Shown: in pieces, positions 3,969 to 58,427 of the stretch | Numbering within the stretch: position 1 is the stretch's first letter | How the letters are laid out: the number at the start of each line of letters is the position of its first letter | DNA from: Paraburkholderia sp. PGU19 | Lineage (GTDB): Bacteria > Pseudomonadota > Gammaproteobacteria > Burkholderiales > Burkholderiaceae | NCBI RefSeq assembly: GCF_013426915.1 | Contig: NZ_AP023183.1 | Location: 310,001-374,000, forward strand | Direction: 5' to 3' | Length of the DNA: 64,000 nucleotides | Notes under the pieces: generated by a model | Database searches by the model: none | The model's input: the letters and a program-made list of their open reading frames with translations, nothing else | What the model was told of the DNA's origin: nothing | Translations under genes and position numbers: made by a program

Positions 3969-5387
3969 ATGTCTCGGTATAAGTCGAGGAGTCGGGTTCC
4001 CGGACCAGAGGTGGACGACGCTGCGTTCGGAGATGAGCCAGATGGCTGGCGCTCGCGGGTAGAGGCAATTCTGAAGGCCAACGTTTATCGGCGCGTCAAT
4101 GGACGTGTGGCAGCCCATCGTACGGTGGAACACAACACGACGGTCATCTTCTGCGCGTTTGATACGTGGCACAACAAGCTCAACCACAAGATCAAGATCC
4201 CGCAAAAGCTGACCGACCGGCATGTGCAGGTGCTGGTGCGGTACTGGTACGAAGAAGGCAAAGCGGCGTCGACGATGAACAACGACCTTTCCGTGCTCCG
4301 GAAGTTTTTCGGGTGGATGGGGAAGAAAGGGATTGTGCGCTCGCTCAAGGAATATCTTCCCGACGCGCCCGCCGATCGCATTGAGCGCCGTAACATGGCC
4401 GCAACCGGAAATAGGTCGAAGTCGTGGAGCGCAAATGGGATTGATGTCGAGCAGAAGCTCCAGGAGGCATTTGCGCTGGATGAGCGCTTCGGAATCATCC
4501 TTGCGATGCAATTCGCGTTCGGCTACCGGCGCAAGGAGACGATCAGCATTCGCCCGTGGATCAACGACCTCCGGCCGCTGGGACAGAACGCGTTCATGAT
4601 GTATGAGCGAGACGGCACCAAGGGCGGGCGGCAGCGGCTGATCCGACTCGAGTTCCCGTTTCAGGTGTGGGCTCTTGACTATGCGAAATCGCGCATTTCC
4701 AAACGCGCCCATCTTGGGTGGCAGAAAACGCGGCGCGGTGAAAATGCGACTTTGGAATACAGCCTTGAGCGATACAAGGAGTACATGAAAAAGCTCGGCA
4801 TTTGCAGAAAAGATGTCTTCGTGACGGGCCATGGTGGGCGTGCGGAATATGCGGAAAACTGCGCGCTCCTTCGCGGTTTCGTCCCAGTCCCGGCGTCTCT
4901 TGGTGGAAAGGCTAACCAGATGCCGCGCGAAGACCTCGAAATTCTGGAGAAACAGGTCAGCGAAAATCTCGGACACAGCCGCGCCCGGATTACGCGGGAT
5001 AGTTACTACGGCACTCCGGACAAGGCTGAGCCACAAGCAGCCAGTTCGGAGCAGGTGGAAGGAAGTGGAAGTGGCACACCGGGGGGCGTCGCTGACAACG
5101 CATCGCAGCGACCGCCCGTTGGCACTGCGATCAGCCTGGAGGAGCGGCTGGCTGCCGCGTGCGAACCTCCGAAGGGATTTTTGGACCTCGCGACTTCCTA
5201 TTACCGCACGATGCCGGCAGGGCGCGTTCGCCCGGACCCTTCGAAACCTCCGGTACCAGGTGTCGGCAGGTTTGCGGCAAAAGCCATCAGTGAAAAAGCG
5301 AAGGCCGAGCCGGTGAAGCGTAAAGGTGGTGTAAGGAGCCGCCCATACGATGAGATGAGCGTCGGCTGCGTTTGCCATTCGGGGTAG
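3969..5387 (+). CDS. Tyrosine site-specific recombinase (integrase-domain protein)
   Basis: A 472-residue tyrosine recombinase that would cut and rejoin DNA through a 3'-phosphotyrosine link. The catalytic set is readable: Arg in GYRRKETISI (about residue 187), Lys in GTKGGRQR (about 218), the HxxR box HGGRAEYA (about 288-291), His in LGHSRARITRDSYYG (about 336) and Tyr nucleophile candidates in DSYYG (about 346-347). The first 130 residues resemble a SAM-like core-binding domain (TVIFCAFDTW, then STMNNDLSVLRKFFGWM). A 120-residue low-complexity tail follows the Tyr. ATG 3969 is chosen because GGGGGAGAG precedes it; an in-frame GTG at 3957 is the alternative. The stop codon lies inside the terminal repeat of the palindrome-ended element at 5381. 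This is not an integron integrase by sequence. Confidence 0.85.
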   Translation: MSRYKSRSRVPGPEVDDAAFGDEPDGWRSRVEAILKANVYRRVNGRVAAHRTVEHNTTVIFCAFDTWHNKLNHKIKIPQKLTDRHVQVLVRYWYEEGKAASTMNNDLSVLRKFFGWMGKKGIVRSLKEYLPDAPADRIERRNMAATGNRSKSWSANGIDVEQKLQEAFALDERFGIILAMQFAFGYRRKETISIRPWINDLRPLGQNAFMMYERDGTKGGRQRLIRLEFPFQVWALDYAKSRISKRAHLGWQKTRRGENATLEYSLERYKEYMKKLGICRKDVFVTGHGGRAEYAENCALLRGFVPVPASLGGKANQMPREDLEILEKQVSENLGHSRARITRDSYYGTPDKAEPQAASSEQVEGSGSGTPGGVADNASQRPPVGTAISLEERLAAACEPPKGFLDLATSYYRTMPAGRVRPDPSKPPVPGVGRFAAKAISEKAKAEPVKRKGGVRSRPYDEMSVGCVCHSG

Positions 5388-5491
5388 TCGTCCGATCATC
5401 GTTTCTTCGGCGGTCGCCGACACGCAGCACCTTTGATGCAAGCAACTTTGCGCGCTGCTACCGTCAGATTCACGAAAAGGATGACTACCCC
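5381..5491. mobile_element. Short palindrome-ended element, copy G (111 bp)
   Basis: Left end GGGGTAGTCGTCC and, inverted, right end GGGGTAGTCATCC bound 111 bp. The arms continue to CGGCGGT and GACGGT. The reverse-strand interior AGTTGCTTGCATCAA resembles AGTCGCTTATAGCAA in the 58.3-kb copy. The recombinase stop codon TAG (5385-5387) lies within the left arm. It marks the left border of the duplicated envelope-protein cassette. Partial copy at 49723-49819. Confidence 0.75.
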
Positions 5492-5634
5492 TGATTGCAC
5501 TCTTGTATTTTCGGCCCGAAACGGCGCTCGTGGCGTGCGTCGTGTCCGCGTGTCCTTCAACATGAAACGCAGATCCATTGCCACGTCGACGCAACTGCGC
5601 ATTGCGTTTTCCTGACGCGCGAAAAGGAGCACGC

Positions 5635-5940
5635 ATGACGCTTTCGAAATGCCTGTTGCTGATCGCGTTGTCGCTGTCCGGTTGTCACGCGCAATCCTCG
5701 AAGACGTATTTCGGCGATGGCCAGACCCCGCCGCAACACGGGCGCGCCTCTTCGCCGCCGCCACTTCCTGGAGCCGAACTGATACAACCACTGCCTCCAG
5801 GCGAACCGCCTCCACAAGCGCAGCAGAAGGCAAAGCCGCAAGCAAAGGCAAGCTCAAAATCGAAGTCCAAACACAGGCAGCACTATCGGCATCCCCCGAA
5901 ACACCATTCGCCACATCAGAGTCAGTATTCGCATCCCTGA
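5635..5940 (+). CDS. Small proline/histidine/lysine-rich lipoprotein
   Basis: 101 residues with a lipoprotein signal peptide: MTLSKCLLLIALSLSGC ends in a perfect LSGC lipobox, so the mature protein should start at Cys17. The mature part is short and disordered, with PPPLPG, PLPPGEPPP, a Lys/Ser/Gln-rich stretch and a His-rich end (KHHSPHQSQYSHP). ATG 5635 is preceded by AAAAGGAG, so the longer frame beginning at 5578 is not used. A paralog follows at 6143, and about 110 bp of upstream DNA is conserved between the two, which suggests tandem duplication with the promoter. A rearranged copy lies at 49963. No known domain; an envelope or metal-binding role would be a guess. Confidence 0.75.
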   Translation: MTLSKCLLLIALSLSGCHAQSSKTYFGDGQTPPQHGRASSPPPLPGAELIQPLPPGEPPPQAQQKAKPQAKASSKSKSKHRQHYRHPPKHHSPHQSQYSHP

Positions 5941-6142
5941 TCCGGTCGCATGTTCAATAGTTCAGAAATGCGCGGGTCCATCGCTTTTCCGGTGCCTTGT
6001 GTTGATTTGGACACGTGTGCATTCGATCCGAAACGGCGCTCGAGGCATGCGCCGTGTCCGCGCGCCCTTCGACGCGAAACGCAGATCCATTGCGACATCG
6101 AGCATTGCGGTATCCTCACGCTCCTATTGAAAAGGAGCGCGC

Positions 6143-6337
6143 ATGAAACTTTCGAAATACCTGTTGCTGATGGCATTGTCACTGTCCGGTGTCGGTCACG
6201 CTCAAACCTCACAGACGTATTACTTCGGCGAAGGCCAAGGCGCGCCGCAAAGCGGGGGTGCCACTTCGCGCGATCGGCATCACACGAAGCACCATTCACA
6301 CCATTCGCCGCATCGGAACCGAAATTCGCATCCCTGA
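6143..6337 (+). CDS. Small secreted His-rich peptide (paralog of the upstream lipoprotein)
   Basis: 64 residues. The signal peptide MKLSKYLLLMALSLSG is almost identical to that of the upstream lipoprotein, but the lipobox Cys is lost and the segment now ends SGVGHAQ, a signal-peptidase-I-type site. The mature part is about 40 residues, starting TSQTYYFGEGQG (compare SSKTYFGDGQT in the paralog) and ending in a His-rich tail. AAAAGGAG precedes ATG 6143. The stop lies 48 bp before the IS21-type insertion at 6386. Confidence 0.7.
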   Translation: MKLSKYLLLMALSLSGVGHAQTSQTYYFGEGQGAPQSGGATSRDRHHTKHHSHHSPHRNRNSHP

Positions 6338-6449
6338 TCCGGTTAGCGTGTGCGCTGCGCATGAGTGGTCGCACTTGTGACCTGGTGTTAGCGCCGGTGT
6401 AAAAGCGACGCTAAACGACGGCGCAAGGCTGAGCGGTTCACTCAAGTAC

Positions 6450-6472
6450 AAAGGGGCCGCGCGGGCCCCTTT
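6450..6472 (-). terminator. Hairpin terminator downstream of the IS21 operon
   Basis: AAAGGGGCC and GGCCCCTTT form a strong GC stem inside the left end of the IS21-type element. Read on the minus strand it is followed by T residues, and it sits about 20 bp past the last IS gene. Confidence 0.6.
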
Positions 6473-6492
6473 CGTTGTATGCGCAGCGTTGA

Positions 6493-6708
6493 TCAGAACG
6501 GCGGGTCGTGCTCGTTGAACGGCGGCTCGCGTTGCCGGCGATCTTGGCGCAGGACCTGCTGCATGTCGGACAGATAGCGTGCGCAGATCACTTCACGCAG
6601 GTCGTCGAGCAGTTCAAACACGGCGAGCGCCTGTTCGGGCGTCCAGTCCGCGGGGACGATGAAGCTTAAGCCGCGGGTGCGGCCGGAAGGCAGCGGCGGG
6701 GCTTTCAT
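6493..6708 (-). CDS. Small accessory protein of the IS21-type element
   Basis: 71 residues with no known domain. It starts at ATG 6708, overlapping the istB stop by 4 bp (ATGA), so it is translationally coupled and is the last gene of the IS operon. The sequence has a readable core (FIVPADWTPEQALAVFELLDDLREVI) rich in helix-forming residues, unlike an antisense shadow. Probably a passenger of this IS subgroup; function unknown. Confidence 0.6.
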   Translation of the reverse strand: MKAPPLPSGRTRGLSFIVPADWTPEQALAVFELLDDLREVICARYLSDMQQVLRQDRRQREPPFNEHDPPF

Positions 6709-7478
6709 GAGGACTCGCCTCCTTTGGCGGATTTACCGGGACTGCGCTGGCGGGCGCGTTTGTCGGCCCGTTCACGCGCTTCCTTCAAGCGATACGATTC
6801 GCCTTCGATCGGGATGACCTCGGCGTGATGCACGAGGCGATCGACGAGCGACACGACACAGGCGGCGTTCGGGAACACCTCGTGCCATTCGGCAAACGGT
6901 CGATTCGATGTAACGATGGTGCTGTTGTTCTGGTATCTCCGGCTGATCAGCTCGAACAGCAGATCGGCGTGGCGATTCGAGTACGAGAGGTAGCCGACCT
7001 CGTCGATTACAAGGACGTCGGGCGCAGCATAGCGATGCAGGCGCCGGCGCAGCGTTGAATCGCTATCGAGCGCAGCGAGTTCGCCCAGCATATTGCCGGC
7101 GGTGGTGAACAGCACCGTGTGTCCATGCACGAGTGCCTGATGCGCGACGTTCTTCGCCAGTGTCGACTTGCCCACGCCGTTTGGGCCGATGAGCACGACG
7201 TTCGCGGCGTCCTTCAGGAACCCGAGTGTCATCAGATCTTCGATGGCGCCGCGATCACACCGCGACGGCCAACTCCAGTCGAAGTCGCACAACGCCTTGA
7301 AGCCACCCAGATGCGCATCCTTGATGCGCCGCTCGAGTGATCGGCGCGCCCGTTCGTCTTCCTCCCACTGCACCAGCGGCGCGACCCACGGTTCATGCGC
7401 AACCTCGGGCCAGTGGGCAAGCAGCCCGTGCAAACGTAATTCCTGCGCACGCATACGTAATGATTCAAGCGAGCTCAT
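6705..7478 (-). CDS. istB: IS21 transposition helper ATPase IstB
   Basis: 257-residue AAA+ ATPase that works with IstA in target selection and strand transfer. Walker A is GPNGVGKST (about residue 105) and Walker B is [10 protein letters not shown] (about 165). Sensor-type features follow in [16 protein letters not shown]. The start at 7478 is set by GGAGG eight bases upstream. The frame stays open upstream to 7922, but that part overlaps istA in another frame and has no ribosome-binding site. It overlaps the end of istA by 14 bp. Confidence 0.95.
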
Positions 7479-9421: not shown

Positions 9422-9855
9422 CGGCGATCCCCGTAGAACGCCGAAGACAATGCGATAGACAGGGGCGCACGAGCCGTGGAATACTGCGGCTGCACGCGCT
9501 CCTCTGTTAAGCCCCGTGGCTTTGCATTGCGACTTGTGTGGCGCGACTCCGGGGTGAACTTGGCGGTTTACCGGTGTCGCGCCAGTGGTTTCTTCGGCGC
9601 TGCGCCTTTCTACCGCAACCGCTCCCCGCCGTCATCCTCAACGCGCTTTGCGCGTCTGCACTCGCCCTACGGGCTCCTTACGACGCACAAAGCGTCATCG
9701 ATACCCTGCTGTACGTGTTCCCCACACACTGCTCAACGAGAATAGGTCGTCTAACGGCTCAATTCCGAAACGCCGTCGTTTAGTGTCGGATTTAGACCGG
9801 CGTTCACACCTGGCCTTGCTCTCGTGAAAACCCCCGACGTCCGTCGCGTCCTATA

Positions 9856-9941
9856 GGGGTATTCGTCCTCTCATTTTCTGGCGGTAACGGCGTAAGAAGC
9901 CGCTTGTAGCAAGGCCCAGCTGAGCGGCATCACACGCTTTT
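9856..9941. mobile_element. Short palindrome-ended element, copy F, left part
   Basis: Begins GGGGTATTCGTCC and continues through TTTTCTGGCGGT, matching the consensus end. The interior AGCCGCTTGTAGCAAGGC matches AGTCGCTTATAGCAAGGC in the 58.3-kb copy. The right part resumes at 12530 after an IS66-type insertion. It marks the right border of the envelope-protein cassette. Confidence 0.75.
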
Positions 9942-10039
9942 GTAACTTGATGGATTTTCAACTGGTTGATCTGAAAGCTTGTTGTAAGAAGTCGAACAGT
10001 ACCGTTGCGGATGAAGTTGACGCGCGAGAGGATCGGCTG

Positions 10040-11629
10040 CTAGCGAATAGGATCGATGTGTGATTCGGCGGGCAGAAGAGGGGCGACTTTCCAGGGTAGC
10101 AGTTCGTCGATCCGGTTCGCTGGGTGATCGGCGATGCGTTCGATGACGTAATGCAGGTAGGCTTCGGGATCGATGCCATTCAGGCGCGCAGTACCGATCA
10201 GGCTGTACATCGCAGCAGCACGTTCGCCGCCTGAGTCTGCTCCGGCAAATAAAAAATTCCGTCTTCCGATTGCCACGCCGCGCAATGCGCGCTCAGCAAT
10301 CAGATTGTCAATCTCGGCCTGACCATCGCTGCAGTAGTAGACCAGCGCAGGCCAGCGATTCAACGAATACTGGATCGCCTTGGTGGTGTCTGATTTCGCG
10401 GAGAGTGTGAGAAGCGTCGCCTCGAACCACCGCTTCATGTTATCAAGCAGCGGCACCGCCTTCTCCTGGCGAACGCGGCGTCGCTCTTCAGGCGGCTTGC
10501 CACGAATGTGCTCTTCGATGCGATAGAGGGCGTCGATGCGCTCGAGTGCGTCGCTGGTGATCGGCGATGGCCGAACAGCGTGCAGGTCGTGCAGCTTTCG
10601 GCGTGCATGGGCCATGCATGCAGCTTCGCGAATCTGGCCGCCCACATATAGCTCGGCATAGCCAGCAAACGCGTCTGCCTGCAGTACGCCAGTGAAGTTG
10701 GCAAGGTGTTGCTGCGGATGTTCGCCGCGACGATCCGGTGTGTAGGCAAACCAGACGGCCGGCGCTTCGGTCGAACCACTTGACCGGTCATCGCGCACAT
10801 ACACCCAGAGACGGCCGGTCTTCGTCTTCCCATTGCCTGGTGCGAGCACCGGTAGCGGCGTGTCGTCGGCGTGAACCTTCGTGCCGCCAAGTGCGTGGCG
10901 GCGCACCGCTTCGACCAGCGGGTTGAGTAGCCAGGTCAGACTGCCCAGCCAGTGACCCATGGTGCCCGCTTCGATCTCGACGCCGTCGCGTGCGTACATG
11001 ACAGACTGCCGGTAGAACGGGATGTGGTACGCGAACTTCGATGTCGCGATGTGTGCGAGCAGTGCCGGACCCGGAAGGCCACGATCGATCGGACGGCTCG
11101 GCGCTGCGGCCTGCACGATACAGTCGCAGCACGAACAGGCTAACTTCGGGCGACGATGGCGGATGACGCGGAAGTGTGCGCGCACGTATTCGAGCTGCTC
11201 GGATACGTCTTCGCCCAGCGGTTTGAGTGTGCCGCCGCAACCCGGGCAGTGCTCCCCGGTGGGCAGATGCACGCGCTCTTCACGTTCGAGGTGATCAGGA
11301 AGCGGTTTGCGACTGCCACTCTCGCGGCGTTGCTGCGCCTTCTTTGCGTCAGCCTGGGCAGCCGCACCTTCGTCGGTCTGCAGGTCCTCAAGTCGCAGCT
11401 CAAGCTGCTCGATCTGACGCTCCAGCTTGTCAGACTTGCGACCGAACTGCATGCGGCGCAGCTTCGCAATCGTCAGCTTCAGATGTTCAATCTCGATTAC
11501 GCGGGAACTGAGCTGGTCCTGCAATTCGGCGACCCGCTGCGCGTTTGCATGAGCTGTCGCCGCATGCGCGAGCACAAGCGCCTTCAGGGCATCGATGTCG
11601 TCGGGCAGATCGGTATCGGTGAGATCCAT
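10040..11629 (-). CDS. tnpC: IS66 transposase TnpC
   Basis: 529 residues. Order: N-terminal coiled coil (about 30-90, with LKLTIAKLRRMQFGRKSDKLERQIEQLELRLEDL), zinc-binding stretch (CPGCGG, then CSCCDC), then the DDE core (KVHADDTPLPVL, LQADAFAGY) and the C-terminal conserved region (QAEIDNLIAERALRGVAIGRRNFLFAG, with the catalytic Glu). The frame is intact and of family length. It is transcribed after tnpA and tnpB. Confidence 0.95.
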   Translation of the reverse strand: MDLTDTDLPDDIDALKALVLAHAATAHANAQRVAELQDQLSSRVIEIEHLKLTIAKLRRMQFGRKSDKLERQIEQLELRLEDLQTDEGAAAQADAKKAQQRRESGSRKPLPDHLEREERVHLPTGEHCPGCGGTLKPLGEDVSEQLEYVRAHFRVIRHRRPKLACSCCDCIVQAAAPSRPIDRGLPGPALLAHIATSKFAYHIPFYRQSVMYARDGVEIEAGTMGHWLGSLTWLLNPLVEAVRRHALGGTKVHADDTPLPVLAPGNGKTKTGRLWVYVRDDRSSGSTEAPAVWFAYTPDRRGEHPQQHLANFTGVLQADAFAGYAELYVGGQIREAACMAHARRKLHDLHAVRPSPITSDALERIDALYRIEEHIRGKPPEERRRVRQEKAVPLLDNMKRWFEATLLTLSAKSDTTKAIQYSLNRWPALVYYCSDGQAEIDNLIAERALRGVAIGRRNFLFAGADSGGERAAAMYSLIGTARLNGIDPEAYLHYVIERIADHPANRIDELLPWKVAPLLPAESHIDPIR

Positions 11630-12529: not shown

Positions 12530-12581
12530 AGCTTTTTTTCGTGAAAACCGCCAGAAAATGCACGAAAAGGACGAATATCCC
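12530..12581. mobile_element. Short palindrome-ended element, copy F, right part
   Basis: Read on the minus strand it is AGGGATATTCGTCC, then TTTTCGTGCATTTTCTGGCGG, matching the consensus end and the left part at 9856. Together the two halves form one element split by the IS66-type insertion. Confidence 0.75.
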
Positions 12582-27433: not shown

Positions 27434-27497
27434 GAGGGTCGGCCGGGATTCGTAGATATCTGAAGCTTAAGATATTCACGAATCCCGGCCGACCCTC
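27434..27497. repeat. 64-bp near-perfect palindrome
   Basis: Arms 27434-27453 and 27478-27497 are exact 20-bp inverted complements (GAGGGTCGGCCGG...). The 24-bp centre is itself nearly palindromic around AAGCTT. Only three of 32 base pairs mismatch. It abuts the broken end of the IS6 remnant and could form a cruciform or long RNA hairpin. Confidence 0.85.
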
Positions 27498-30181: not shown

Positions 30182-30508
30182 ATGAACAAGAAGGTAACCA
30201 AGTTTTCCCCGGAAGTCCGGGAGCGCGCAGTGCGTCTGGTGCGCGAGCAGCGTAGCGAACATCCGTCGATGTGGTCGGCGGTCGAATCGATTGCGCCGAT
30301 GATCGGCTGCACACCGCAGACACTGCACGAGTGGGTCAAGCGCGACCAGGTCGACCACGATGAGCGCGATGGTGTGACCTCAGACGAGCGCGAGCGCCTC
30401 AAGGCCTTGGAGCGCGAAGTCAAGGAGTTGCGTCGTGCCAACGAGATTCTCAAGGTCGCGAGCGCGTTTTTCGCCCAGGCGGAGCTCGACCGCCGTTTCA
30501 AGTCCTGA
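30182..30508 (+). CDS. IS3-family OrfA
   Basis: 108 residues. Helix-turn-helix ([15 protein letters not shown]... [19 protein letters not shown]) followed by a leucine-zipper-like coil ([32 protein letters not shown]). Binds the IS ends. A run of five T near GCGTTTTTCGCC before the stop could be the site of the programmed frameshift that joins it to OrfB. Confidence 0.93.
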
Positions 30509-31416
30509 AGGCCTTTATCGATCAGCATCGCGACACCTTCGGGGTCGAGCCGATCTGCAAGGTCTTGCGGATTGCCCCGTCGGGCTACCGACGCCATGCC
30601 GCGCAGCTTCGTGATCCGTCGCGGCGCTCTGTTCGCGCAATCCGCGATGAACGTCTGCGGCCGGAGATCGAGCGTGTGTGGCGGGCCAACATGCAGGTCT
30701 ACGGCGCCGATAAAGTCTGGAAGCAGATGAACCGGGAGCGTATCGCGGTGGCGCGCTGCACGGTCGAACGGTTGATGAAGCAACTGGGTTTGCGCGGCGT
30801 GATGCGAGGCAAGCGTGTTCGCACGACTGTTCCAGATGCCATAGCCCCGCGCCCACTGGATCGGGTCAATCGCCAGTTCAAGGCGGCACGGCCGAACCAG
30901 CTCTGGGTTTCGGATTTCACCTACGTTTCGACGTGGCAGGGCGGGCTGTACGTGGCCTTCGTGATCGACGTGTTCGCTCGCCGTATTGTCGGCTGGCGCG
31001 TCAGCACCTCGATGACCACGGACTTCGTTCTGGATGCACTTGAACAGGCGCTTTACGCGCGACGCCCGGGCGACGACGGGACCTTGATACACCATTCGGA
31101 CAGAGGGTCCCAATACGTCAGCATTCGCTATAGCGAACGGCTGGCCGAAGCGGGCATCGAACCGTCGGTCGGCAGCCGGGGCGACAGCTATGACAACGCC
31201 TTGGCTGAAACGATCAACGGCTTGTACAAGGCTGAACTGATTCATCGCCGCGCCTGGAAAACGCGGGAATCCGTTGAACTGGCAACGCTGGAGTGGGTGG
31301 CCTGGTTCAATCATCATCGATTGATGGAACCCCTCGGCTATATCCCGCCCGCCGAAGCTGAGGCAAACTACTATCGGCAACTTGAAACAGCTGCCGCTGA
31401 ACCCGTATTAACTTAA
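30487..31416 (+). CDS. IS3-family OrfB (transposase catalytic subunit)
   Basis: Open frame overlapping the end of orfA, expected to be made as an OrfAB frameshift product. The rve core is complete: [13 protein letters not shown] (Asp), [10 protein letters not shown] (Asp) and [15 protein letters not shown] (Glu). The family C-terminus [17 protein letters not shown] is present. The first in-frame ATG (30565) falls inside the conserved HTH_21 region, which supports translation by frameshifting. Confidence 0.92.
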
Positions 31417-31930: not shown

Positions 31931-32102
31931 GGGGTATTCGTCATTTGGGTGCAAAAAATGGCGGTCGCGGGGCGCGGAGCTACCTATGGCAAGGCTTCGC
32001 AAATATGCGAGTCGCGACAGATTGGGCGATCTGCAAGTCATTGATAAGGCGGCATTTGTCGATCCTAACGTCCAGAATTCGCACCAAAATGACGATTACC
32101 CC
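31931..32102. mobile_element. Short palindrome-ended element, copy D (172 bp)
   Basis: Left end GGGGTATTCGTCATTTGGG and, inverted, right end GGGGTAATCGTCATTTTGG. The interior is closely related to copy C at 50882 (shared TTCGCAAATATGCGAGTCGCG and the following GGCGATCTGCAAGTCATTG). It contains an inner small palindrome TCGCA-AATA-TGCGA. It lies 300 bp upstream of the glycosyltransferase gene. Confidence 0.75.
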
Positions 32103-49722: not shown

Positions 49723-49819
49723 GATCATCGTTTCTTCGGCGGTCGCCGACACGCAACACCTTGATGCAAGCAACTTTGCGCGCTGCTACCGTCAGATTCA
49801 CGAAAAGGATGACTACCCC
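49723..49819. mobile_element. Partial copy of short palindrome-ended element G
   Basis: Near-identical to 5394-5491 but lacking the first 13 bp of the left arm, which is replaced by sequence next to the ISKra4 remnant. Left border of the second envelope-protein cassette. Confidence 0.75.
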
Positions 49820-49962
49820 TGATTGCACTCTTATATTTTCGATCCGAAACGGCGCTCGTGGCGTGCGTCGTGTCCGCGCGTCCTTCAACGTGAAACGCAG
49901 ATCCATTGCCACGTCGACGCAACTGCGCAGTGCGTTTTCCTGACGCGCGAAAAGGAGCACGC

Positions 49963-50151
49963 ATGAAGCTTTCGAAATGCCTGTTGCTGATCGCGTTGTC
50001 GCTGTCCGGTTGTCACGCGCAATCCTCGAAGACGTATTTCGGCGATGGCCAGACCCCGCCGCAACACGGGCGCGCCTCTTCGCCGCCGCCACTTCCTGGA
50101 GCCGAAATATTTCGAAAGCTTCATGCGCGCTCCTTTTCAATAGGAGCGTGA
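49963..50151 (+). pseudogene. Lipoprotein gene copy, C-terminus replaced by an inversion
   Basis: Same AAAAGGAG, signal peptide, lipobox (LSLSGC) and first half (KTYFGDGQTPPQHGRASSPPPLPGAE) as the gene at 5635. At 50107 the sequence switches to inverted DNA, so the protein ends in 15 unrelated residues (IFRKLHARSFSIGA). It may still be made as a 62-residue lipoprotein, but the Pro/His-rich tail is lost. Confidence 0.8.
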
Positions 50152-50488
50152 GGATAACGCAATGCTCGATGTCGCGATGGATCTGCGTTTCGCGTCGAAG
50201 GGCGCGCGGACACGGCGCATGCCTCGAGCGCCGTTTCGGATCGAATGCACACGTGTCCAAATCAACACAAGGCACCGGAAAAGCGATGCACCTGCGCATT
50301 TCTGAACTATTGAACATGCGACCGGATCAGGGATGCGAATACTGACTCTGATGTGGCGAATGGTGTTTCGGGTGATGCCGATAGTGCTGCCTGTGTTTGG
50401 ACTTCGATTTTGAGCTTGCCTTTGCTTGCGGCTTTGCCTTCTGCTGCGCTTGTGGAGGCGGTTCGCCTGGAGGCAGTGGTTGTATCAG
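50107..50488. repeat. Inverted copy of the segment between the two paralogous genes
   Basis: This 382-bp stretch is the reverse complement of about 5779-6159. It carries, backwards, the lipoprotein C-terminal half and the upstream region and start of the second paralog. About 32 bp of the second signal peptide (6160-6191) are missing at the right junction, where TCGGTCACGCTC resumes in the original direction. The rest of the second paralog (to about 50624) therefore has no start. Confidence 0.85.
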
Positions 50489-50795
50489 TCGGTCACGCTC
50501 AAACCTCACAGACGTATTACTTCGGCGAAGGCCAGGGCAAGCCGCAAAGCGGGGGGCCACTTCGCGCGATCGGCATCACACGAAGCACCATTCGCCGCAT
50601 CGGAACCGGAATTCGCATCCCTGATCCGGTTAGCGTGTGCGCTACGCATGAATGGTCACGCCTGTGACCTGGCCTTGCTCTCGTGAAAACCCCCGACGTC
50701 CGTCGCGCCCTACAGTGATAGCCACATGCCGGCGCTACCGCGACGCGTTGCCGCGAGACCGGCCGTGGACCCATTTCGTGCGCAACGAGCGCGCC

Positions 50796-51146
50796 ATGGA
50801 CCCCGCGACGACGGCCATCATCGCACCGCTGTCGGCCGCCGCAAGCGGTGCGACAACAGAAGTTGCCAAGAAGGCCATCTCGGGGTATTCGTCCTTTTGG
50901 TGCAAAAGATGGCGGTCGCGGGGCGCGCAGCCGCCTACGACAATGCTTCGCAAATATGCGAGTCGCGACAGATCGGGCGATCTGCAAGTCATTGATAAGG
51001 CGGATTTTTTCGATCCTAACCGCCATACAAGCACCAAAAGGACGATTACCCTGAGGTCGACGAGTAGACGCGTGGTTCCCGGGGTGGCTGCTGGTGGATC
51101 AAACCGGCGCTCGCGGGCCGGTTCGGTGAGGCGCGTGTCAGCGTGA
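50796..51146 (+). pseudogene. N-terminal fragment of a small Burkholderia-type protein fused to element C
   Basis: Begins MDPATTAIIAPLSAAASGATTEVAKKAI, the usual start of a family of hypothetical proteins I associate with Burkholderiaceae. The frame then runs straight into the palindromic element (at 50882) and is translated as GYSSFWCKRWRSRGAQ. So the element either inserted into the gene or its left end now supplies a false C-terminus. The original downstream part is not found. Confidence 0.5.
50882..51052. mobile_element. Short palindrome-ended element, copy C (171 bp)
   Basis: Left end GGGGTATTCGTCCTTTTGG and, inverted, right end AGGGTAATCGTCCTTTTGG. Interior matches copy D (31931), including TTCGCAAATATGCGAGTCGCG. 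The right terminal base has diverged (CCCT instead of CCCC). Confidence 0.75.
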
Positions 51147-51680
51147 CCGGGCCGCGTCGCGTGCGACTGCCCTGCTCGGAGAGATCCTGCGGCGGGAGCA
51201 CGAAGGCGACCAGCACGAACTGGTCAGTCTGCGTCAGGCATTCAGCCGGTTGCATGCGGGTCTGTTCGAGGCGTACATGACAACACGAAAAGTGCAGCAC
51301 CGGTGAAGAGTTCATGGCAGGCGTGCTCTGAAGCCCGATTCATCACGCTTGCAGCAACCTCGGCGACCGGTTGTCCGGGACCATCCCCGGATAATGTCCG
51401 AACCGAATTGACGTGCCGGCCTCGATACTGCATGACCGACCAATTGACACTGCATGTCCTGGGCGACGGACAAAGGGCGTTAAACGACCTGAGTCGGTAT
51501 AAACATGCGACGCGTACCTTCATGTCATGCGGCGCAACCAGGCCTTCTGTAGCTTGACGGGCAAACACCACCTTTCCGCTTTGCAACGCGGCAAATCTTT
51601 TCTATGGTGGTAGACGACGCACCGCAGTGACAAAACCGCGACGATCATCGTTCTTGATGGGGTGCATAAGGGGTCCGGCA
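51053..51680. other. Gene-poor stretch
   Basis: No supported gene. A plus-strand stretch around 51165-51306 reads TALLGEILRREHEGDQHELVSLRQAFSRLHAGLFEAY, which is protein-like but without a start or known family, so it may be a remnant. Confidence 0.35.
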
Positions 51681-54035
51681 ATGACCCACGATCTAAGGAC
51701 CTGGCTGGTTCAGAGTGGACTCGGAAAGCACGCCGCAGCGTTTGAGTCGCAGGGAATTGACTGGGACGTGCTCGCCGACCTTTCAGACGGCGATCTGAAG
51801 GAACTCGGGCTGACGCTCGGCGACCGCAAGCGGCTCGCCAAAGCGCGAGCGGTGTTGACCGAGTCCCACGAATATCAAGCGGCGTGTGTAAAGAAACGAG
51901 GAGCATCACCTTCGTCGGCCGCCGGAAGCATTGAGGCTGAGAGGCGGCAATTGACGGTGATGTTCATCGACCTCATCGATTCGACCGCGCTTGCGGAACG
52001 GTTTGACCCGGAAGAGATGCGGAGTCTTCTGGCAGCCTATCATCGAGCCTGCGCGAGCGCGATCGACGCTCATGAAGGCCATATTGCGCTTTACGTCGGC
52101 GACGGAGTCGACGTCTATTTTGGCTACCCGAATGCTCACGAAGACGATGCGATACGTGCGGTACTGGCCGGCTTCGCCGTCATTGCCGCACTTCGCAAGG
52201 CCAACGAGCGCGTCGAAACCGAGCACGGCGTCCGCCTACACGTTCGTATCGGAATCGAGACCGGACTGGTCGTCGTCGGTACGATTGGCGCCGGACCCAC
52301 CCTGGATCATCAGGCAATCGTCGGCGAGGCGCCAATCGTCGCCGCGCGGCTGCAGGCGCTCGCTCCAGCCGACTCCGTCATAGTGGGCCCCGTCAGCCGT
52401 CATTTGATCGAGGGATCGTTCCGTCTCGAAAATCTGGGGCGGCGGCGACTGAAAGGGGTGACCGGTACCGTGCAGGTTCAACGCGTACTAGCGCCGACCG
52501 AAGCTGTCGACCGCTTCGAGATCAGAACGATCCATGGGGTGACGCCTCTCGTGGGCCGTGCGGCTGAGCTCGGCATGATCCGGCAGCGCTGGCAGCACAG
52601 CGTGGATGGCGAGATGCGCAGCGTGCTGGTGATTGGTGAGCCCGGTATCGGAAAGTCTCGCGTGCTGCGGGCATTTTGCGACAGTATTCGTGGAGACCTC
52701 CATGAGGCTGTCTCGCTTCACTGCTCCTCTTACCATCGCAACAGTCCCTTCTGGCCGGTACTACGCTGGCTACAACGCGCGATGGGTCTCGGTCCCAATG
52801 GGAATATTGAAGAGCGACGGACCGGCATCGCCAGACTCGCGGTCGATGCAGAAGAAACGCGACTCGCGCTTGCGACGTTGCTCGGCATCCCGACAGACGC
52901 GGACCATCCGGATCTTGACGTTTCCTCTCCATCCCTCAAACGTCGGACGCTTGATGTGCTCGTCTCTATCGTCGAAAACTTGACGCGCGTTCAACCCTTG
53001 CTCGTTGTCGTCGAAGACGCGCAATGGATCGATCCGTCATCCCTTGAATTTGTTCGGCTGGTTCTCGAGCGGCTGGAGACCAACCGTCTCCTGGTACTGG
53101 TCACCGCGCGCCCTGAGTTCGAGCCGGGTTGGAATTACCCTCATCTTGTTACCGTCAACCTCGATCGGCTCTCCCGCGGTGAAAGCGTTGCAATAATTGA
53201 ACAGATCACCGATGGAAAGCCGCTTCCAGGTTTCGTTCTCGACGAGATTGTTTCCAAGACGGACGGCGTGCCGCTATTCGTTGAGGAGCTAACCAAGGCT
53301 GTCCTCCAGGGCGATTTGCTGCACGATGCGGGCATCCGCTATGAATTGAAAGGAGCCCCGCAGACAATTGCGATTCCCGATACGCTGCAGGGCTCGCTGC
53401 TATCACGGCTTGATCGGCTGGATCCAACCGCAAAGGAGGTTGCCCAGATTGCGGCCACCGTGGGAAGGGAATTCAGCATAAAGCTGTTGCGCCTGATTGC
53501 GTCGCGATCAGAGAGAGAACTGCAGGAAACGCTCAAGAGCCTCGTCGCCGCCGAAATCATCGTTTCCACTTCGAGTAAGCCGGGGGAAAGCGGCACCTAT
53601 CAGTTCCGGCACGCGTTGATCCAGGAGATCGCCTACCAATCCCTGTTACTCGAGCGCCGCCGACAATACCACGCGCTGATCGCCGTCGCGCTAGAGGAAC
53701 ATTATCCGGAAATCGTCGACCGACAACCCGAGTTGATCGCTCAGAACTACGCCGCCGCCGATCAGCCTGAACGTGCAATCTCTTATTGGCAGCTCGCCGG
53801 GGAGCGTGCGCTTGCGGGAGCGGCATACGACGAGGCTATCGCTCACGTGCGCAGCGGACTGGAACTGGCAAATAGATCTGGGTTATCAGAGCAGGGCGTG
53901 CTTGCCCACCTTCACAAGATATTGCGCAACTTGCTTGACCGCGCTGAACATAGTCGCCGCGATGTCTATCTTGCGTCGGCGGTGGATCTTTGCGAACTTG
54001 AACGGCGTATGCGTTCGATCGGGACTGACGATTAG
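51681..54035 (+). CDS. SAM domain - class III adenylate/guanylate cyclase - AAA/TPR signalling protein
   Basis: 784 residues. Order: SAM domain (LRTWLVQSGLGKHAAAFESQGIDWDVLADLSDGDLKELG, about 4-60); class III cyclase domain (QLTVMFIDLIDSTALAERFDPEEM with the metal Asp, then HIALYVGDGVDVYFGYPNAHEDDA, about 95-245); large STAND/AAA-type ATPase (Walker A VIGEPGIGKSR, Walker B PLLVVVEDAQWIDPSS, about 290-620); then the start of TPR-like helices (AISYWQLAGERALAGAAYDEAIAHVRSGL). Many homologs have longer TPR tails, so the C-terminus may be shortened. ATG 51681 follows AAGGGG; an upstream in-frame start (51627) lacks support. Probably a stress or ligand sensor producing cAMP. Confidence 0.88.
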   Translation: MTHDLRTWLVQSGLGKHAAAFESQGIDWDVLADLSDGDLKELGLTLGDRKRLAKARAVLTESHEYQAACVKKRGASPSSAAGSIEAERRQLTVMFIDLIDSTALAERFDPEEMRSLLAAYHRACASAIDAHEGHIALYVGDGVDVYFGYPNAHEDDAIRAVLAGFAVIAALRKANERVETEHGVRLHVRIGIETGLVVVGTIGAGPTLDHQAIVGEAPIVAARLQALAPADSVIVGPVSRHLIEGSFRLENLGRRRLKGVTGTVQVQRVLAPTEAVDRFEIRTIHGVTPLVGRAAELGMIRQRWQHSVDGEMRSVLVIGEPGIGKSRVLRAFCDSIRGDLHEAVSLHCSSYHRNSPFWPVLRWLQRAMGLGPNGNIEERRTGIARLAVDAEETRLALATLLGIPTDADHPDLDVSSPSLKRRTLDVLVSIVENLTRVQPLLVVVEDAQWIDPSSLEFVRLVLERLETNRLLVLVTARPEFEPGWNYPHLVTVNLDRLSRGESVAIIEQITDGKPLPGFVLDEIVSKTDGVPLFVEELTKAVLQGDLLHDAGIRYELKGAPQTIAIPDTLQGSLLSRLDRLDPTAKEVAQIAATVGREFSIKLLRLIASRSERELQETLKSLVAAEIIVSTSSKPGESGTYQFRHALIQEIAYQSLLLERRRQYHALIAVALEEHYPEIVDRQPELIAQNYAAADQPERAISYWQLAGERALAGAAYDEAIAHVRSGLELANRSGLSEQGVLAHLHKILRNLLDRAEHSRRDVYLASAVDLCELERRMRSIGTDD

Positions 54036-54044
54036 GGTATAACG

Positions 54045-54104
54045 GGGCTCAACAAGGTACGCGGTTATGCGCCGCAGCACATCAACCTTTACCTTGTTGA
54101 GCCC
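54045..54104. terminator. Long-stem hairpin between convergent genes
   Basis: GGGCTCAACAAGGTA and its exact complement (15 bp) flank a 30-base loop, ending 5 bp before the CDGSH stop. Positioned between convergent genes, so it may act as a bidirectional terminator. It lacks a clear T tract and could instead be a small inverted-repeat element. Confidence 0.5.
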
Positions 54105-54108
54105 TATT

Positions 54109-54315
54109 CTATGGCTTTTCGTCGAGATTGCTTGAGAACCCGACTTTCTTATGTGAGCCGTCGCAGAGTGGCTTGTGGCTCGACTGACCGCACCGGCATA
54201 GCCAGACTTCGTTCTTGCCCGCTGCGATTGGTTGCCCGCCCTGCGTGTTAATCTGGAAGTCACCTGTTATGTGGTACGGGCCGTCATTCTGTGGTGTGAT
54301 GATTACAGTCGCCAT
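54109..54315 (-). CDS. CDGSH iron-sulfur domain protein
   Basis: 68 residues. WLCRCGQSSHKPLCDGSHKKVGF provides the three Cys and one His that bind a 2Fe-2S cluster in CDGSH (mitoNEET-like) proteins. The N-terminal strands (TVIITPQNDGPYHITGDFQI) and QPIAAGKNEVW are typical. ATG 54315 is preceded by TGGAGG; the longer open frame is unsupported. Likely a cytoplasmic redox protein. Confidence 0.92.
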   Translation of the reverse strand: MATVIITPQNDGPYHITGDFQINTQGGQPIAAGKNEVWLCRCGQSSHKPLCDGSHKKVGFSSNLDEKP

Positions 54316-54673
54316 GTGCGCCTCCAATGAGGGTGAATCGCGCAAGCCTGCGCAGCACCGGGCCCTCAATTGGGGCAACCCGGCAGCAGGTCCAGTTTCA
54401 GTCTATATCCGGATGGCGCGAAAATGAGCCGGTTCCTGCCGCGCGATCGTGCAAAGCCGGGCACCGGACGTGCTGCGGCGCATCGTGGTGGGGCCACGGC
54501 CGTATGCGTTCATCATGGCCGCGGTGTTTGCGCTGATCGGTGTATTTCCGCAACTGACGGCGCTCCTGTTCGGCGCATCCTGATGGAGTGTTTAGTCAGA
54601 TCAAGCCAGCTTCAACGGTGAAGGTGGATTCGATACACTGGAAAAGACCTGTATATCGCATTTCACCGCTGTG
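54316..54673. other. Intergenic region with a possible membrane-peptide remnant
   Basis: One frame (about 54450-54583) reads VLRRIVVGPRPYAFIMAAVFALIGVFPQLTALLFGAS, a plausible membrane segment, but there is no start codon with a ribosome-binding site. Probably the 3' remnant of a membrane-protein gene. Confidence 0.3.
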
Positions 54674-54965
54674 ATGGATCTGGATTTCAGGCAAACCGTA
54701 TCCAGCGACTTGGAATGGCTATTTGACACGTACAAGCGAACGATGAGGGTTTTGGTCTCCTGGTTGTATGGATCGGACGAGGACTCGCAACGAGCAGGGT
54801 TCGCAAAAAACGTTCGCCAAGGTGCCTGCCAGATCGTGACGTACGAGGGCAAACGATGCGGATTTGTGCACTGGGAGGTCGAACCGGATCTCGTATGGCT
54901 GAGGATGCTTTGTATCGTGCCGGATATGCAACTCAAGTCGATCGGCAGTCAAGTGATGGCGAAGG
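54674..54965 (+). pseudogene. GNAT-type acetyltransferase, 3'-truncated by IS6 DNA
   Basis: DFRQTVSSDLEWLFDTYKRTMRVLVSWLYG starts the frame and LVWLRMLCIVPDMQLKSIGSQVM is the acetyl-CoA-binding beta4/alpha3 region with a degenerate Q/RxxGxG/A loop. The frame then runs into the IS6 transposase at about 54966. The C-terminal third is gone. Confidence 0.65.
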
Positions 54966-55659
54966 TTAGCTGCGCTACAAGGTCAGCCTGCGTGATGTGT
55001 TGAGATGATCGCCGAGCGTGGCCTGTCGCTGGCCCACACGACGATTCTGCGTAGGGTGGAACGCTACACGCCGGAGTTCGTCAAACGCTGGGACCGTTTC
55101 GGCACGCCTGCGGGTGCGTCGTGGCGCGTCGACGAAACTTACGTAAAAATCCGCGGCAAATGGATCTATCTTTATCGGGCAGTAGATCGGGTGGGGCAGA
55201 CGGTTGATTTCCTGCTCAGGCCGAAACGTGACGTGAAGGTCGGCCAAAGCCTTCTTTAGCAAGGCCATCATACATCAGGGCAAGCCGCCACAAACCCTCA
55301 CCCTCGATCGCTATGCCGCCTCACACCATGCCGTGCGGGAGATGAGGGCGGAAGGCCCGCTACAGGAGGACACGAAGATCCGGTCGTCGAAATATCTCAA
55401 CAACTTGATCGAGCAGGACCATCGCGACATCAAGTCCCGGACCAATGTCATGCTCGGCTTCAAACGGTTCAGGAACGCCGCGATCACGCTCGGAGGCACT
55501 GAGCTGATGTATCGCATTCGAAAAAGTCAATTCATTCTCGCGAAGCTCGGTCTCAAAGATACTACTGCGCCCGCCGTCTGGAATGCTGTCCTGTCTGCCC
55601 GATAAGAAATCCTTTCTATTCGAACCGTCTCTTCCAGACCGCCTATTTGCACCAGATCC
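54966..55659 (+). pseudogene. IS6-family element, 5'-truncated and frameshifted
   Basis: Begins abruptly in LRYKVSLRD, continues [29 protein letters not shown] and [27 protein letters not shown] frameshift near 55245 follows, then KYLNNLIEQDHRDIKSRTN to the end. The right terminal repeat CTATTTGCACCAGATCC (55643-55659) resembles that of the element at 33609. The left end is missing. Confidence 0.88.
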
Positions 55660-55779
55660 CTTACGAGGTGCGCGTCGCACTAGTCGTTGTCACGCCGCCG
55701 TTCACGGCGACAACAGCGTCGCGGGACTTTCGCAAATGAGGCGGCACAGTCCGCGAAAGCCCCACTATCAACTTGCGCT

Positions 55780-56043
55780 CTAGTGACCGCTGTCGGCGCT
55801 ACATTGTGGCAGGTGACCACAGGTGGCCCATCCCGGGCGAGTCGAATTTCCGCTCACAGTGGCGCCCCCGGATACACCACCATATCCGGACGTGCCGGGA
55901 GAGGCGCTCGTCGAGGTGTTGGCGCTGCTAGAGGTCGATACCGATTGCGCATCTTGCTGCCCTGCCATGTCCTGGGCTTGCACTGCGCCTGCTAACGAGA
56001 GTGCGCCCAGGAACGCTGCAGACGTGAGAAACGTGGTCTTCAT
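55780..56043 (-). CDS. Small secreted Ser/Gly/Thr-rich protein
   Basis: 87 residues. The signal peptide MKTTFLTSAAFLGALSLAGAVQA is cut before QDMAG. The mature chain is low complexity (SVSTSSSANTSTSASPGTSGYGGVSGGATVSGNS) with two Cys near the end. AAAGGAG precedes ATG 56043. Function unknown; surface or periplasmic location inferred. Confidence 0.7.
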   Translation of the reverse strand: MKTTFLTSAAFLGALSLAGAVQAQDMAGQQDAQSVSTSSSANTSTSASPGTSGYGGVSGGATVSGNSTRPGWATCGHLPQCSADSGH

Positions 56044-56660
56044 GACTTACTCCTTTACGACATCAGGTTTCAGTTTTTGCGACCGCTTTGACATAAGCAC
56101 GGGTGAAGGGGCTGGCATGCGCCAGAGGACAGACGCTGCCGGCGATTCTGCCCGTTGCCGGAACCCGTTGCGGCGACGATATTCGTGGCCTTGGCCTTCG
56201 ACCGGGTTCTGGGAGAAACAATTAACGCGGCAAAACCGCGACTGGCGTTCGAGGGGACAAATGCACCTGAAGAACTGCCTGAGGGCCTGTAAGCCCGGTG
56301 CGTGAAAAGGATGCGCACAACATAACCCTATGTCAGCGTCCGGAAAATACACTAAGCCTTTCGTCATAGGACGGCTCGCGAACTGGACACGCGACAAGAC
56401 ATCACCGGGCATGCTGCGTATTGCGGGGCAATTGCTCGTGATGGAGCGTCATTGGGGTCTCCGACCTCGAAGCCGTGACTGTTGCCGCAGATGGATCGAC
56501 ATGCCCGAATATTTCGCGCAGCAAAACGGAGCAATTCCCTTGAAATGATCACCCGTTTGTTCGACACAGGTCTGCATGTGGCTTACTTCTGCACGTTATT
56601 GGGAATTACGATCAGCTGCGGCACATTCGAATTGGCCAGTGACCAAATGAGCGACAGTAA
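56044..56660. other. Gene-poor stretch
   Basis: A plus-strand frame at 56330-56548 (MSASGKYTKPFVIGRLANWTRDKTSPGMLRIAGQLL...) has no ribosome-binding site and no known domain. Nothing else supported. Confidence 0.4.
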
Positions 56661-56870
56661 TCAACCTACGGCCGTCCAGCCGAACGCAATATTGATCAGC
56701 AAGATAGCCATTCGACTCGCGTGTTGTCGGTGACGAGTACACAGTGAAACCGCGTCATAATGGCCAGCATTCTCCCGCACACACGTTTGGAACGGACTAG
56801 TGTAGATGTAGATGCCGTTTGCAACGAGGATAGTAGCAGCGGTAATGCTCGCTGGGATAAATTGCTTCAT
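56661..56870 (-). CDS. Small secreted or membrane-anchored protein
   Basis: 69 residues. MKQFIPASITAATILVANGIYIYTSPFQTCVRE: an N-terminal hydrophobic anchor followed by a short Cys-containing tail. AGGG lies upstream of ATG 56870. Small proteins with the YxSPxQTC pattern seem familiar from Burkholderiaceae, but I cannot name a function. Confidence 0.5.
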   Translation of the reverse strand: MKQFIPASITAATILVANGIYIYTSPFQTCVRENAGHYDAVSLCTRHRQHASRMAILLINIAFGWTAVG

Positions 56871-57209
56871 GTTCGTTATCCCTACAATTTTCTCTGCTGC
56901 GAGTTGCTTCTTGTGGGACATTCTTACACCGAGCATCCGGCTGCGCGTGATACTTTCGGGCCAACTCTTGCCCTGTGAGCAGCCATATCTCCCTCCGTTC
57001 GCAATGACGCAGCTAACCGCGTGTGGAGGACAAATCTCGCTCCCGAATGTACGTTAGACGGCAACCATCGCCGCATGAGCGCATGGCAGCGTCGAAAAGT
57101 CTTTGCTGCCGGCCGCTACTCTCGCTACCTTTGAGTCATACGAACACCGCTGCGTGTTCCTGGCAACACGCTGGCGGATCGGCGATGGACCACTCCAGGG
57201 GCGGCAAAT

Positions 57210-58229
57210 ATGCATATCTTTTTCGCTGGGCCGGCCGGGCTATTTCGCGAGAGCGTCGCACGTCTGCTCGGCGATCTGCTCCCCGGCGCCGAGGTCGGGA
57301 TCGCAGACTACGCCGCCTCGGGGTCTGAAGTCAGGTTAGCCGCCGACCTGCTCGTGCTGGATGGCGATCACGTGAGTGAAGCACTCGAGGCCGTCGGCGC
57401 GGCACGTCGCAGCAACCACGCCCTGCCGATCGTCGTGCTGCTGACGACGCTCGATCTCCGGTTTGTCGAGAGTTTCATCGCCGCCGGTGCGGGGGGGTGT
57501 GTCGACAAATCGGATTCCGCGGAAGTGCTACGAGGCGCGCTGCGTCTGGTGATGGCGGGTGGCATATACCTGCCCCCCACGCTGTTCAGTTTCGTGGTGA
57601 ACGGGCACGAACCATCCGCAGATACGTCGACGAAGTCGAATGCAGTGCCGCAAGACAGTGCCTGTGCGCTGACTCCGCGACAAATCGAGGTACTGGCGCT
57701 CGCCGCGCGCGGAGACTCCAACAAGGCGATCGCACGCCACCTCAATATTGCCGAGGGAACGGTCAAGGCACATCTGTACTCCGCTTACAAGGCGCTCAAG
57801 GTCGGTAGCCGAAGCCAGGCGAGCATAGCTGCGATGAGGCTGAAAGAGGTCAGCGACGAACAGCTTCATCAGGCACTAAGTGGTCAGTTGTCGGTGGGAA
57901 GGCTGCTGGCCCGTATGACGCGTAGTCATTTCAGGTCAGGCGAAGTGCTGTTTCGCAAGGGTGATCGGAGCGATGCGATCTATTACATTGTCCGCGGCAA
58001 ATTCAGTCTGCCGGAGATCGGCATCGAAGTGGGGCCCGGTGCGATCCTTGGGGAGATCGGATTGTTCTCGGCTGACCATCGCCGCATGTGTACAGCGCGC
58101 TGCGACAGCGACAGCGAACTGCTTTCGGCTTCGGCAACGGATGCCATGCGGCTCTACTACCAGGATCCCGAGTTTGCAACCTATTTGACATGTCTCATTA
58201 CGCGCCGGCTGCACCCCGACACGCGGTGA
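57210..58229 (+). CDS. Transcription regulator: receiver-like - LuxR HTH - cNMP-binding domains
   Basis: 339 residues. Domains in order: receiver-like fold (1-115; DLLVLDGDHVSEALE holds the candidate phospho-Asp, VLLTT and a Lys in CVDKSDSAEV complete the site), LuxR-type helix-turn-helix (about 150-212; LTPRQIEVLALAARGDSNKAIARHLNIAEGTVKAHLYSAYKAL), then a Crp-like cyclic-nucleotide-binding barrel (about 235-335; FRSGEVLFRKGDRSDAIYYIVRGKFSLPEIGIEVGPGAILGEIGLFS). A NarL-type regulator with a cNMP sensor at the C-terminus is unusual. The cNMP phosphate-binding Arg-Ser pattern is altered, so ligand binding is uncertain. ATG 57210 with AGGGG about 10 bases upstream. A cyclase gene lies 3 kb upstream. 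Confidence 0.85.
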   Translation: MHIFFAGPAGLFRESVARLLGDLLPGAEVGIADYAASGSEVRLAADLLVLDGDHVSEALEAVGAARRSNHALPIVVLLTTLDLRFVESFIAAGAGGCVDKSDSAEVLRGALRLVMAGGIYLPPTLFSFVVNGHEPSADTSTKSNAVPQDSACALTPRQIEVLALAARGDSNKAIARHLNIAEGTVKAHLYSAYKALKVGSRSQASIAAMRLKEVSDEQLHQALSGQLSVGRLLARMTRSHFRSGEVLFRKGDRSDAIYYIVRGKFSLPEIGIEVGPGAILGEIGLFSADHRRMCTARCDSDSELLSASATDAMRLYYQDPEFATYLTCLITRRLHPDTR

Positions 58230-58303
58230 CCGCCCAACACCACTGACAACGCTCTCACGCGATATTTCTGCGCGTTCGCGCCCGGAGTAAAAGTGTCCAG
58301 ACA

Positions 58304-58427
58304 GGGGTAATCGTTCGAATCGTGCAAAATCTGGCGGTAATAGGTTGCAAAGTCGCTTATAGCAAGGCAGCGCGACTTCGCGATTTTTGCAAACCGCCAG
58401 ATTTTGCACGATTCGAACGATTACCCC
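58304..58427. mobile_element. Short palindrome-ended element, copy E (124 bp, perfect 35-bp arms)
   Basis: 58304-58338 and 58393-58427 are perfect 35-bp inverted complements (GGGGTAATCGTTCG ... AAATCTGGCGGT). The 54-bp interior holds AGTCGCTTATAGCAAGGC, shared with copy F. Best-preserved member of the family; lies 75 bp after the regulator gene. Confidence 0.88.

Follow-up and report, generated by a model that had tools for sequence, protein, structure and literature searches.

Short palindrome-ended elements in the window

The window, i.e. the whole stretch of 64,000 nucleotides of Paraburkholderia sp. PGU19 analysed here, contains two full-length copies of a short palindrome-ended element, one 124-bp form, one copy split by an IS66-family insertion sequence and two truncated copies (Table 1). 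The six places listed by a sequence-only reading all hold the sequences described: the 35-bp end pattern (up to 3 mismatches) has 5 matches in the window against a mean of 0 in shuffled sequence (n = 100), and a 13-bp pattern (up to 2 mismatches) has 18 matches against 4.0 expected, the largest shuffle giving 9. The description needs correction in that the two-part element is one copy with an IS66-family transposase gene between its parts, and the 111-bp element is truncated like the partial copy, both of these lying in a duplicated stretch. The two full-length copies are 87% identical to each other. The 35-bp pattern has 10 matches in the whole genome, and the reversed control pattern has 0.

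Table 1 Copies of the element family and the interrupting transposase gene in the window.
Feature	Coordinates	Strand	Details
Truncated copy, 111 bp	5381..5491	+	13 bp of left end left
IS66-split copy, left part	9856..9941	+	
IS66-family transposase gene between both parts of split copy	10040..11629	-	gene coordinates
IS66-split copy, right part	12530..12581	+	35-bp end at 12547-12581
Full-length copy, 172 bp	31931..32102	+	ends 31931-31965 and 32068-32102
Truncated copy, left end absent	49723..49819	+	within duplicate of 5394-5732 stretch
Full-length copy, 171 bp	50882..51052	+	left end 50882-50916; right end to 51052, first base decayed
Short form, 124 bp	58304..58427	+	perfect 35-bp arms 58304-58338 and 58393-58427

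The search for further genomic copies that the earlier reading had proposed was positive. The end was found at up to 1 mismatch in 45 of 144 genomes of the genus (reversed control, 0 among the genomes listed), and an exact scan of genome contigs detected 56 stretches carrying it, including, outside its own genus, Burkholderia, Caballeronia, Cupriavidus, Ralstonia, Trinickia and one Herbaspirillum MAG; the family is widespread in bacteria with large, fluid genomes. Among 83 pairs of ends spaced 60-1000 bp (up to 5 mismatches per end), 77 delimit elements of 171-173 bp and 6 fall outside this range, a near-fixed length despite the copies being only about 66% identical. Length was taken from this count because the set of 93 short copies used below was limited to 160-180 bp (up to 4 and up to 9 mismatches in the two ends), which also bounds its indel count.

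Ends shared with a Tn3-family insertion sequence

The same 35-bp ends also bracket insertion sequences of 3.3-3.6 kb whose main gene encodes a Tn3-type TnpA of about 1000 amino acids. Twelve such copies were identified (end identity to the consensus 0.83-0.97), for example one of 3365 bp encoding a 999-aa Tn3 TnpA. This partner insertion sequence combines ends starting with GGGG and a Tn3-type DDE transposase (PF01526, E 1e-109; DUF4158; PDB relative, the TnpA of Tn4430), as Tn3-family elements do. The short elements are TIMEs, i.e. MITEs cut down from an IS1071/IS882-like Tn3-family insertion sequence: TIMEs have TIRs of about 38 bp in common with a Tn3-family element, here the 35-bp ends of the 12 insertion sequence copies, and the forms of 124-173 bp leave no room for a gene, so the earlier statement that no transposase is carried was right for the short form. 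As judged against Rfam and the literature searched, which gave no description of it, the TIME family is new. A TIME is probably built of two insertion sequence ends (about 86 bp each) joined head to head; the subterminal blocks of the insertion sequence are only slightly closer to the TIME than shuffled sequence is. No close helper transposase was found in the genome to which the window belongs.

Target duplications are split between copies

The direct duplications at element borders that the sequence-only reading had proposed to look for were absent: not one of the 93 short copies is flanked by a 5-bp target duplication of its own, and own duplications of 2-12 bp were not above chance. The flanks nevertheless carry the signature of a 5-bp stagger, their composition being symmetric about a 5-bp core (184 ends; C at position -6 in 110), with symmetry peaking at 5 bp (r 0.93), followed by 4 bp (0.77). 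In all 3 same-genome pairs with an identity of 99% or more (a cut set after the list was seen, passed by just three pairs), the two copies divide one exact 5-bp duplication between them, compared to 1 of 24 less similar same-genome pairs (76-98%) and a background of 16 matches in 8340 between-genome end pairs; the pair test left out the 10 of 93 copies with no genome label. In each of the three top pairs one end combination matches and the other does not (5 and 2, 5 and 2, 5 and 0), the pattern expected when an older donor has undergone a single new event. One 77%-identical pair and one end pair of unlike copies (G133) also show a 5-bp match, and either may be due to chance. The split duplication was absent between two full insertion sequence copies compared on one Cupriavidus megaplasmid.

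A 49.7-kb unit with one copy at each end interrupts an IS110-type gene and is flanked by a 5-bp duplication; its uninterrupted site is present in other genomes. The comparison of filled and empty sites proposed earlier was successful for this unit. Target duplication of 5 bp per insertion event, as expected of TIMEs, is recovered in split or outer position (the 3 of 3 pairs and the composite unit); own direct repeats at each copy are not strictly defining for TIMEs. Flank symmetry, split duplications and the composite unit show a 5-bp staggered, replicative mechanism. Among the options raised by the sequence-only reading, whose interpretation is partly supported overall, that of non-autonomous transposons is borne out by the Tn3-family ends and the recoverable 5-bp target duplications.

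Breakpoints at the copies

Once subjects that were the copy itself or had the end in common are set aside, an uninterrupted homologue reaches the border at 20 ends of 18 copies, and 0 continue into the other flank. Support from breakpoints was also drawn from the window. For the 124-bp form, the flank homologies end before the element is reached; in at least 4 draft genomes its two neighbouring genes sit on separate contigs, which is weak evidence. The ancestral order of the inverted G094 pair was sought in relatives with no informative match, and no inversion was confirmed; one relative matched the joined target of the third pair (G113) through the duplication plus 8 bases and then diverged. 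When the flanks of G113 and those of G094 were joined, no gene was convincingly restored. Given the lack of own duplications in the 93 copies and the evidence for 5-bp replicative transposition, the copies are probably scars of inversions, deletions or replicon joinings and not simple insertions.

Proposed mechanism and alternatives

We consider it likely (probability of roughly 0.8) that the TIMEs derive from the ends of IS1071/IS882-like insertion sequences and are moved by the TnpA of the full insertion sequence, with a 5-bp stagger, replicatively and usually without resolution. TnpA made by a full insertion sequence would bind and nick both TIME ends, presumably acting in trans on the short form; the nicked ends would be joined to a target whose strands are cut 5 bp apart, and replication would produce two copies. 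Rather than a clean insertion, the reaction would usually yield an inversion, a deletion next to the element or a joined molecule, because no resolution system was seen in the short form or in the insertion sequence; missing resolution may well be the rule for all copies. With such outcomes, the two halves of a duplication would be separated, each beside a different copy, or would flank a copy-ended unit on its outside. The fixed length probably reflects a requirement of the two-ended transposition complex.

The alternative that survives best, though we regard it as improbable, is that ordinary TIME insertions with 5-bp duplications had their flanks later swapped by homologous recombination between copies, as Szuplewska et al. 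2014 proposed for some Pseudomonas TIMEs (PMC4133298). Copies L031 and L120, with a common right flank and different left flanks, fit this exchange, as do the Pseudomonas TIMEs described in that source, of which 4 of 18 have direct repeats and some have the 3' parts of different genes on their two sides. However, exchange predicts that both duplications be split, and only one is split in each of the three most alike pairs; it also needs to have occurred at every copy, none of the 93 having kept its own duplication. Site-specific recombinase target or core sites (res-, dif- or attC-like) that shuffle flanks, the recombinase substrates of the earlier reading, are very unlikely: near-fixed length, flanks differing on both sides and the res-like sites borne by other TIMEs (PMC13367494) agree with such sites, but conservation is lowest at the centre (0.57 compared to 0.85 at the ends, 57 copies), which speaks against a crossover core, and what the flanks show at the outer borders is the 5-bp stagger of transposition. 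Least probable of all are structured RNAs or hairpin regulatory elements (REP-, BIME- or ERIC-like), also raised earlier: the 124-bp copy forms a near-perfect hairpin when folded (z -14.2) and arms within a copy differ by a mean of 6.9 of 35 positions against 8.7 when dealt among copies (lowest of 2000 shuffles 8.1), which shared descent also explains, but the arms are the ends of an insertion sequence, only 5 of 93 copies have perfect ones, Rfam gave no match to the elements (its sole match being an ALIL element elsewhere), and the two full window copies, folded as 150-nt stretches, behave like shuffles (z -0.56 and 0.06), the last 21-22 bases, and hence the terminal pairing, lying outside the stretch.

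A more far-reaching version of unresolved replicative transposition, which we put forward tentatively and at somewhat less than even odds, is that the family practically never inserts simply, that every copy is an inversion, deletion or fusion scar, so that the copies log Burkholderiaceae rearrangements, and that the 172-bp size comes from the geometry of the transposition complex and not from descent. If true, TIME copies would be a readable log of rearrangements in the multi-replicon genomes of Burkholderiaceae. Individual inversions and replicon joinings can be traced by pairing up split 5-bp duplications between copies.

Comparison with known systems

IS1071 and IS882 are, like the partner, TnpA-only Tn3-type insertion sequences; the partner TnpA is 37.7% identical to that of IS1071 and 50.8% to that of IS882, and the IS1071 end also starts with GGGGT, shows GTGCA and CGGT at corresponding positions and agrees at 22 of 35 bases. 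TIME244, IS101 and MITESen1, with the TIME-COMPs (PMC13367494), resemble the 49.7-kb unit in that Tn3-type mini-elements bracket cargo with a 5-bp repeat outside, the unit being longer than the 1-11 kb TIME-COMPs listed there. As described in the same source, TIME244 and IS101 have res-like sites and move in Enterobacteriaceae plasmids, whereas no conserved core site was seen in the present family. The Pseudomonas TIMEs (TIME1-4 and relatives, 262 bp), according to PMC4133298, are likewise gene-free with Tn3-family ends, highly conserved in size despite different cores, rarely flanked by direct repeats in natural copies, and able to form composite units; unlike the present family, they generated complete 5-6 bp repeats when trapped on a plasmid and mostly occur once per genome. 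The present family belongs to another Tn3 branch (IS1071/IS882-like), measures 172 bp and occurs in Burkholderiaceae, with several copies in one genome. Two points left open for Pseudomonas TIMEs, the few direct repeats and the constant length, become testable: both would follow if a two-ended, length-constrained complex transposes the element replicatively without resolution.

Structure and distribution of the short elements

All six places in the window at which the sequence-only reading had described dispersed palindrome-ended elements carry them, in full-length, split or truncated form. Matches to the 35-base end pattern (at most 3 mismatches) numbered five in the window, with none in shuffled sequence, and ten in the 11.2-Mb genome, with none for a reversed control pattern.

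Features of the window and of the copies compared
Feature	Coordinates	Description
Full-length copy	31931-32102	172 bp
Full-length copy	50882-51052	171 bp
Copy with perfect arms	58304-58427	124 bp
Split copy	9856-9941 and 12530-12581	IS66-family transposase gene in between
Truncated copy	5381-5491	within duplicated stretch
Truncated copy	49723-49819	within duplicated stretch
Duplicated, partly inverted block	5394-6385 and 49723-50672	carries both truncated copies; pieces 96-98% identical, direct and inverted
Run of 11-bp units	1451-1671	TGCGAACTCCT, TGCGAACTAGG and TGCGTACCAAG types; 14 overlapping copies
Near-perfect palindrome	27434-27497	32-bp arms, no spacer
ALIL pseudoknot	30463-30579	117 bits; RNA element of IS transposase frameshifting
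802-aa protein	51627-54035	SAM, adenylate/guanylate cyclase, AAA and DUF3563 domains
Locus L043, same genome	8874-9104 (C4:1290873-1291103)	copy 60 bp from the end of a second, partial copy
Pair in genome G152 (L275-L278)	C3:315341-364997	100% identical, direct, bordering a 49.7-kb catabolic unit; duplication at outer borders
Pair in genome G094		99.4% identical, inverted, 438 bp between copies
Pair in genome G113		99.4% identical, on two draft contigs

The consensus of the short form (copies oriented by sequence) is 172 bp long. In the 57 copies of exactly this length, conservation was 0.85 and 0.86 in the 35-bp ends, 0.75 and 0.73 in a second block on each side (46-72 and 101-120) and 0.57 in the centre (73-100). 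The consensus halves are imperfect inverted repeats over their whole length, so the element can be read as two ends of about 86 bp placed head to head. Length was nearly fixed: among 83 end pairs lying 60-1000 bp apart, each end with no more than 5 mismatches, 77 spanned 171-173 bp and 56 exactly 172 bp. Within the 93 copies of a set restricted to 160-180 bp, mean identity was 66% (400 random pairs), and the mean departure from the consensus was 44 substitutions against 0.7 indel positions.

The partner insertion sequence

A search with the 124-bp copy revealed, in one relative, two inward-facing ends 3365 bp apart, enclosing a 999-aa TnpA with a Tn3 DDE domain (E 1e-109) and DUF4158. Its only PDB sequence matches were to Tn4430 TnpA; among the matches listed, the closest plasmid relatives (Cupriavidus and Burkholderia) were 74-80% identical, IS882 50.8% and IS1071 37.7%. 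Twelve insertion sequence (IS) copies with the same ends measured 3334-3577 bp, four of them with a longest open frame of merely 521-746 codons; the TnpA gene takes 3 kb, leaving little space for a resolvase. By eye, the IS ends contain similar second blocks at nearly the same distance as in the short form (AAGGCT on the side upstream of tnpA, and either ATCAATG or ATCAAAG on the opposite side); their measured identity to the short form was only slightly above that of shuffled sequence.

The window's genome encodes a single long Tn3-type TnpA frame of 751 codons, which shares 39% identity with the partner TnpA and 47% with that of IS1071; two further matches are partial, one of them under the family cut-off. 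As no close helper transposase was found in this genome, the window copies are probably dormant.

Target duplications and breakpoints

The direct duplications sought at the element borders were absent from single copies: an own 5-bp repeat was found in 0 of 93 short copies (a single copy matches at 4 of 5 bases; mean flank match 27%, the chance level) and in 0 of 13 complete IS copies. A 5-bp stagger can be read from the flank composition: of 184 ends, 110 have C at position -6, the preferences at -5/-1 and -4/-2 are complementary to each other, and 5 bp fitted best among 2-12 bp (r 0.93; 4 bp, r 0.77).

Replicative transposition within one molecule leaves the halves of the target duplication on two copies, and between molecules it results in joining instead of insertion unless resolved (PMC5142620, a study on IS26 and Tn3 elements). 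Among 27 same-genome pairs of at least 75% identity, all three that are at least 99% identical, a cut chosen once the list was seen, have one combination of opposite ends whose 5-bp flanks agree exactly; so does 1 of the remaining 24. The between-genome rate was 16 of 8340 end pairs, at which three out of three would have a chance of about 6e-8. Exchange between two ordinary insertions should split both duplications; the second end combination was unmatched in each of the three pairs, which speaks against such exchange and favours a single new event that started from an older donor.

The G152 unit interrupts a transposase gene of the IS110 type, whose right piece carries PF02371. Comparison of filled and empty sites recovered the uninterrupted target: the flanks, joined over one duplication copy, gave unbroken matches in other genomes (best, all 198 query bases at 96%). 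The 20 scanned ORFs of the 34 listed include metabolic genes (aldehyde dehydrogenases, aminotransferases, acyl-CoA dehydrogenase, CoA transferase, TPP enzyme), transposases, a reverse transcriptase and others, with no replication gene among them. The unit may have arrived as a composite transposon or through the joining of a circle.

The examined loci supplied an uninterrupted homologue for 20 ends, which belong to 18 copies (14 short, 4 IS); each homologue came within 7 bases of the border, and none ran on into the other flank of its copy (alignment scores 9-17; shuffle control for one similar pair, mean 9.7, maximum 12). Two window copies show the same pattern: a paralogue 95% identical to the right flank of 31931-32102 lies on another replicon and starts at the border, and the paralogue of the left flank at 9855 ends at 50714. 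The sample is biased to repeated sequence, so these alignments support the copies as breakpoints, short of proof for every copy. The copies at L031/L045 and L120/L166 belong to two species; their right flanks are 98% identical and their left flanks unrelated, a neighbourhood changed on one side only. The L043 arrangement looks like one copy having jumped into the other, which speaks against strong target immunity.

Relation to known elements

The family behaves as Tn3-derived inverted-repeat miniature elements (TIMEs) and shows their main features, and the G152 unit may be a large natural TIME composite. The elements represent a new TIME family, with a different branch of Tn3-type IS as its source and a different bacterial group as its host; none of the papers searched described it, those containing one of four end sequences included (relevance judged by title). 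Its most unexpected features are the fixed length and the apparent lack of simple insertions. No copy here keeps its own direct repeats, and in the founding TIME paper (PMC4133298) most natural copies likewise lack them; Pseudomonas TIMEs also resemble the family in length, being mostly 262 bp regardless of their core.
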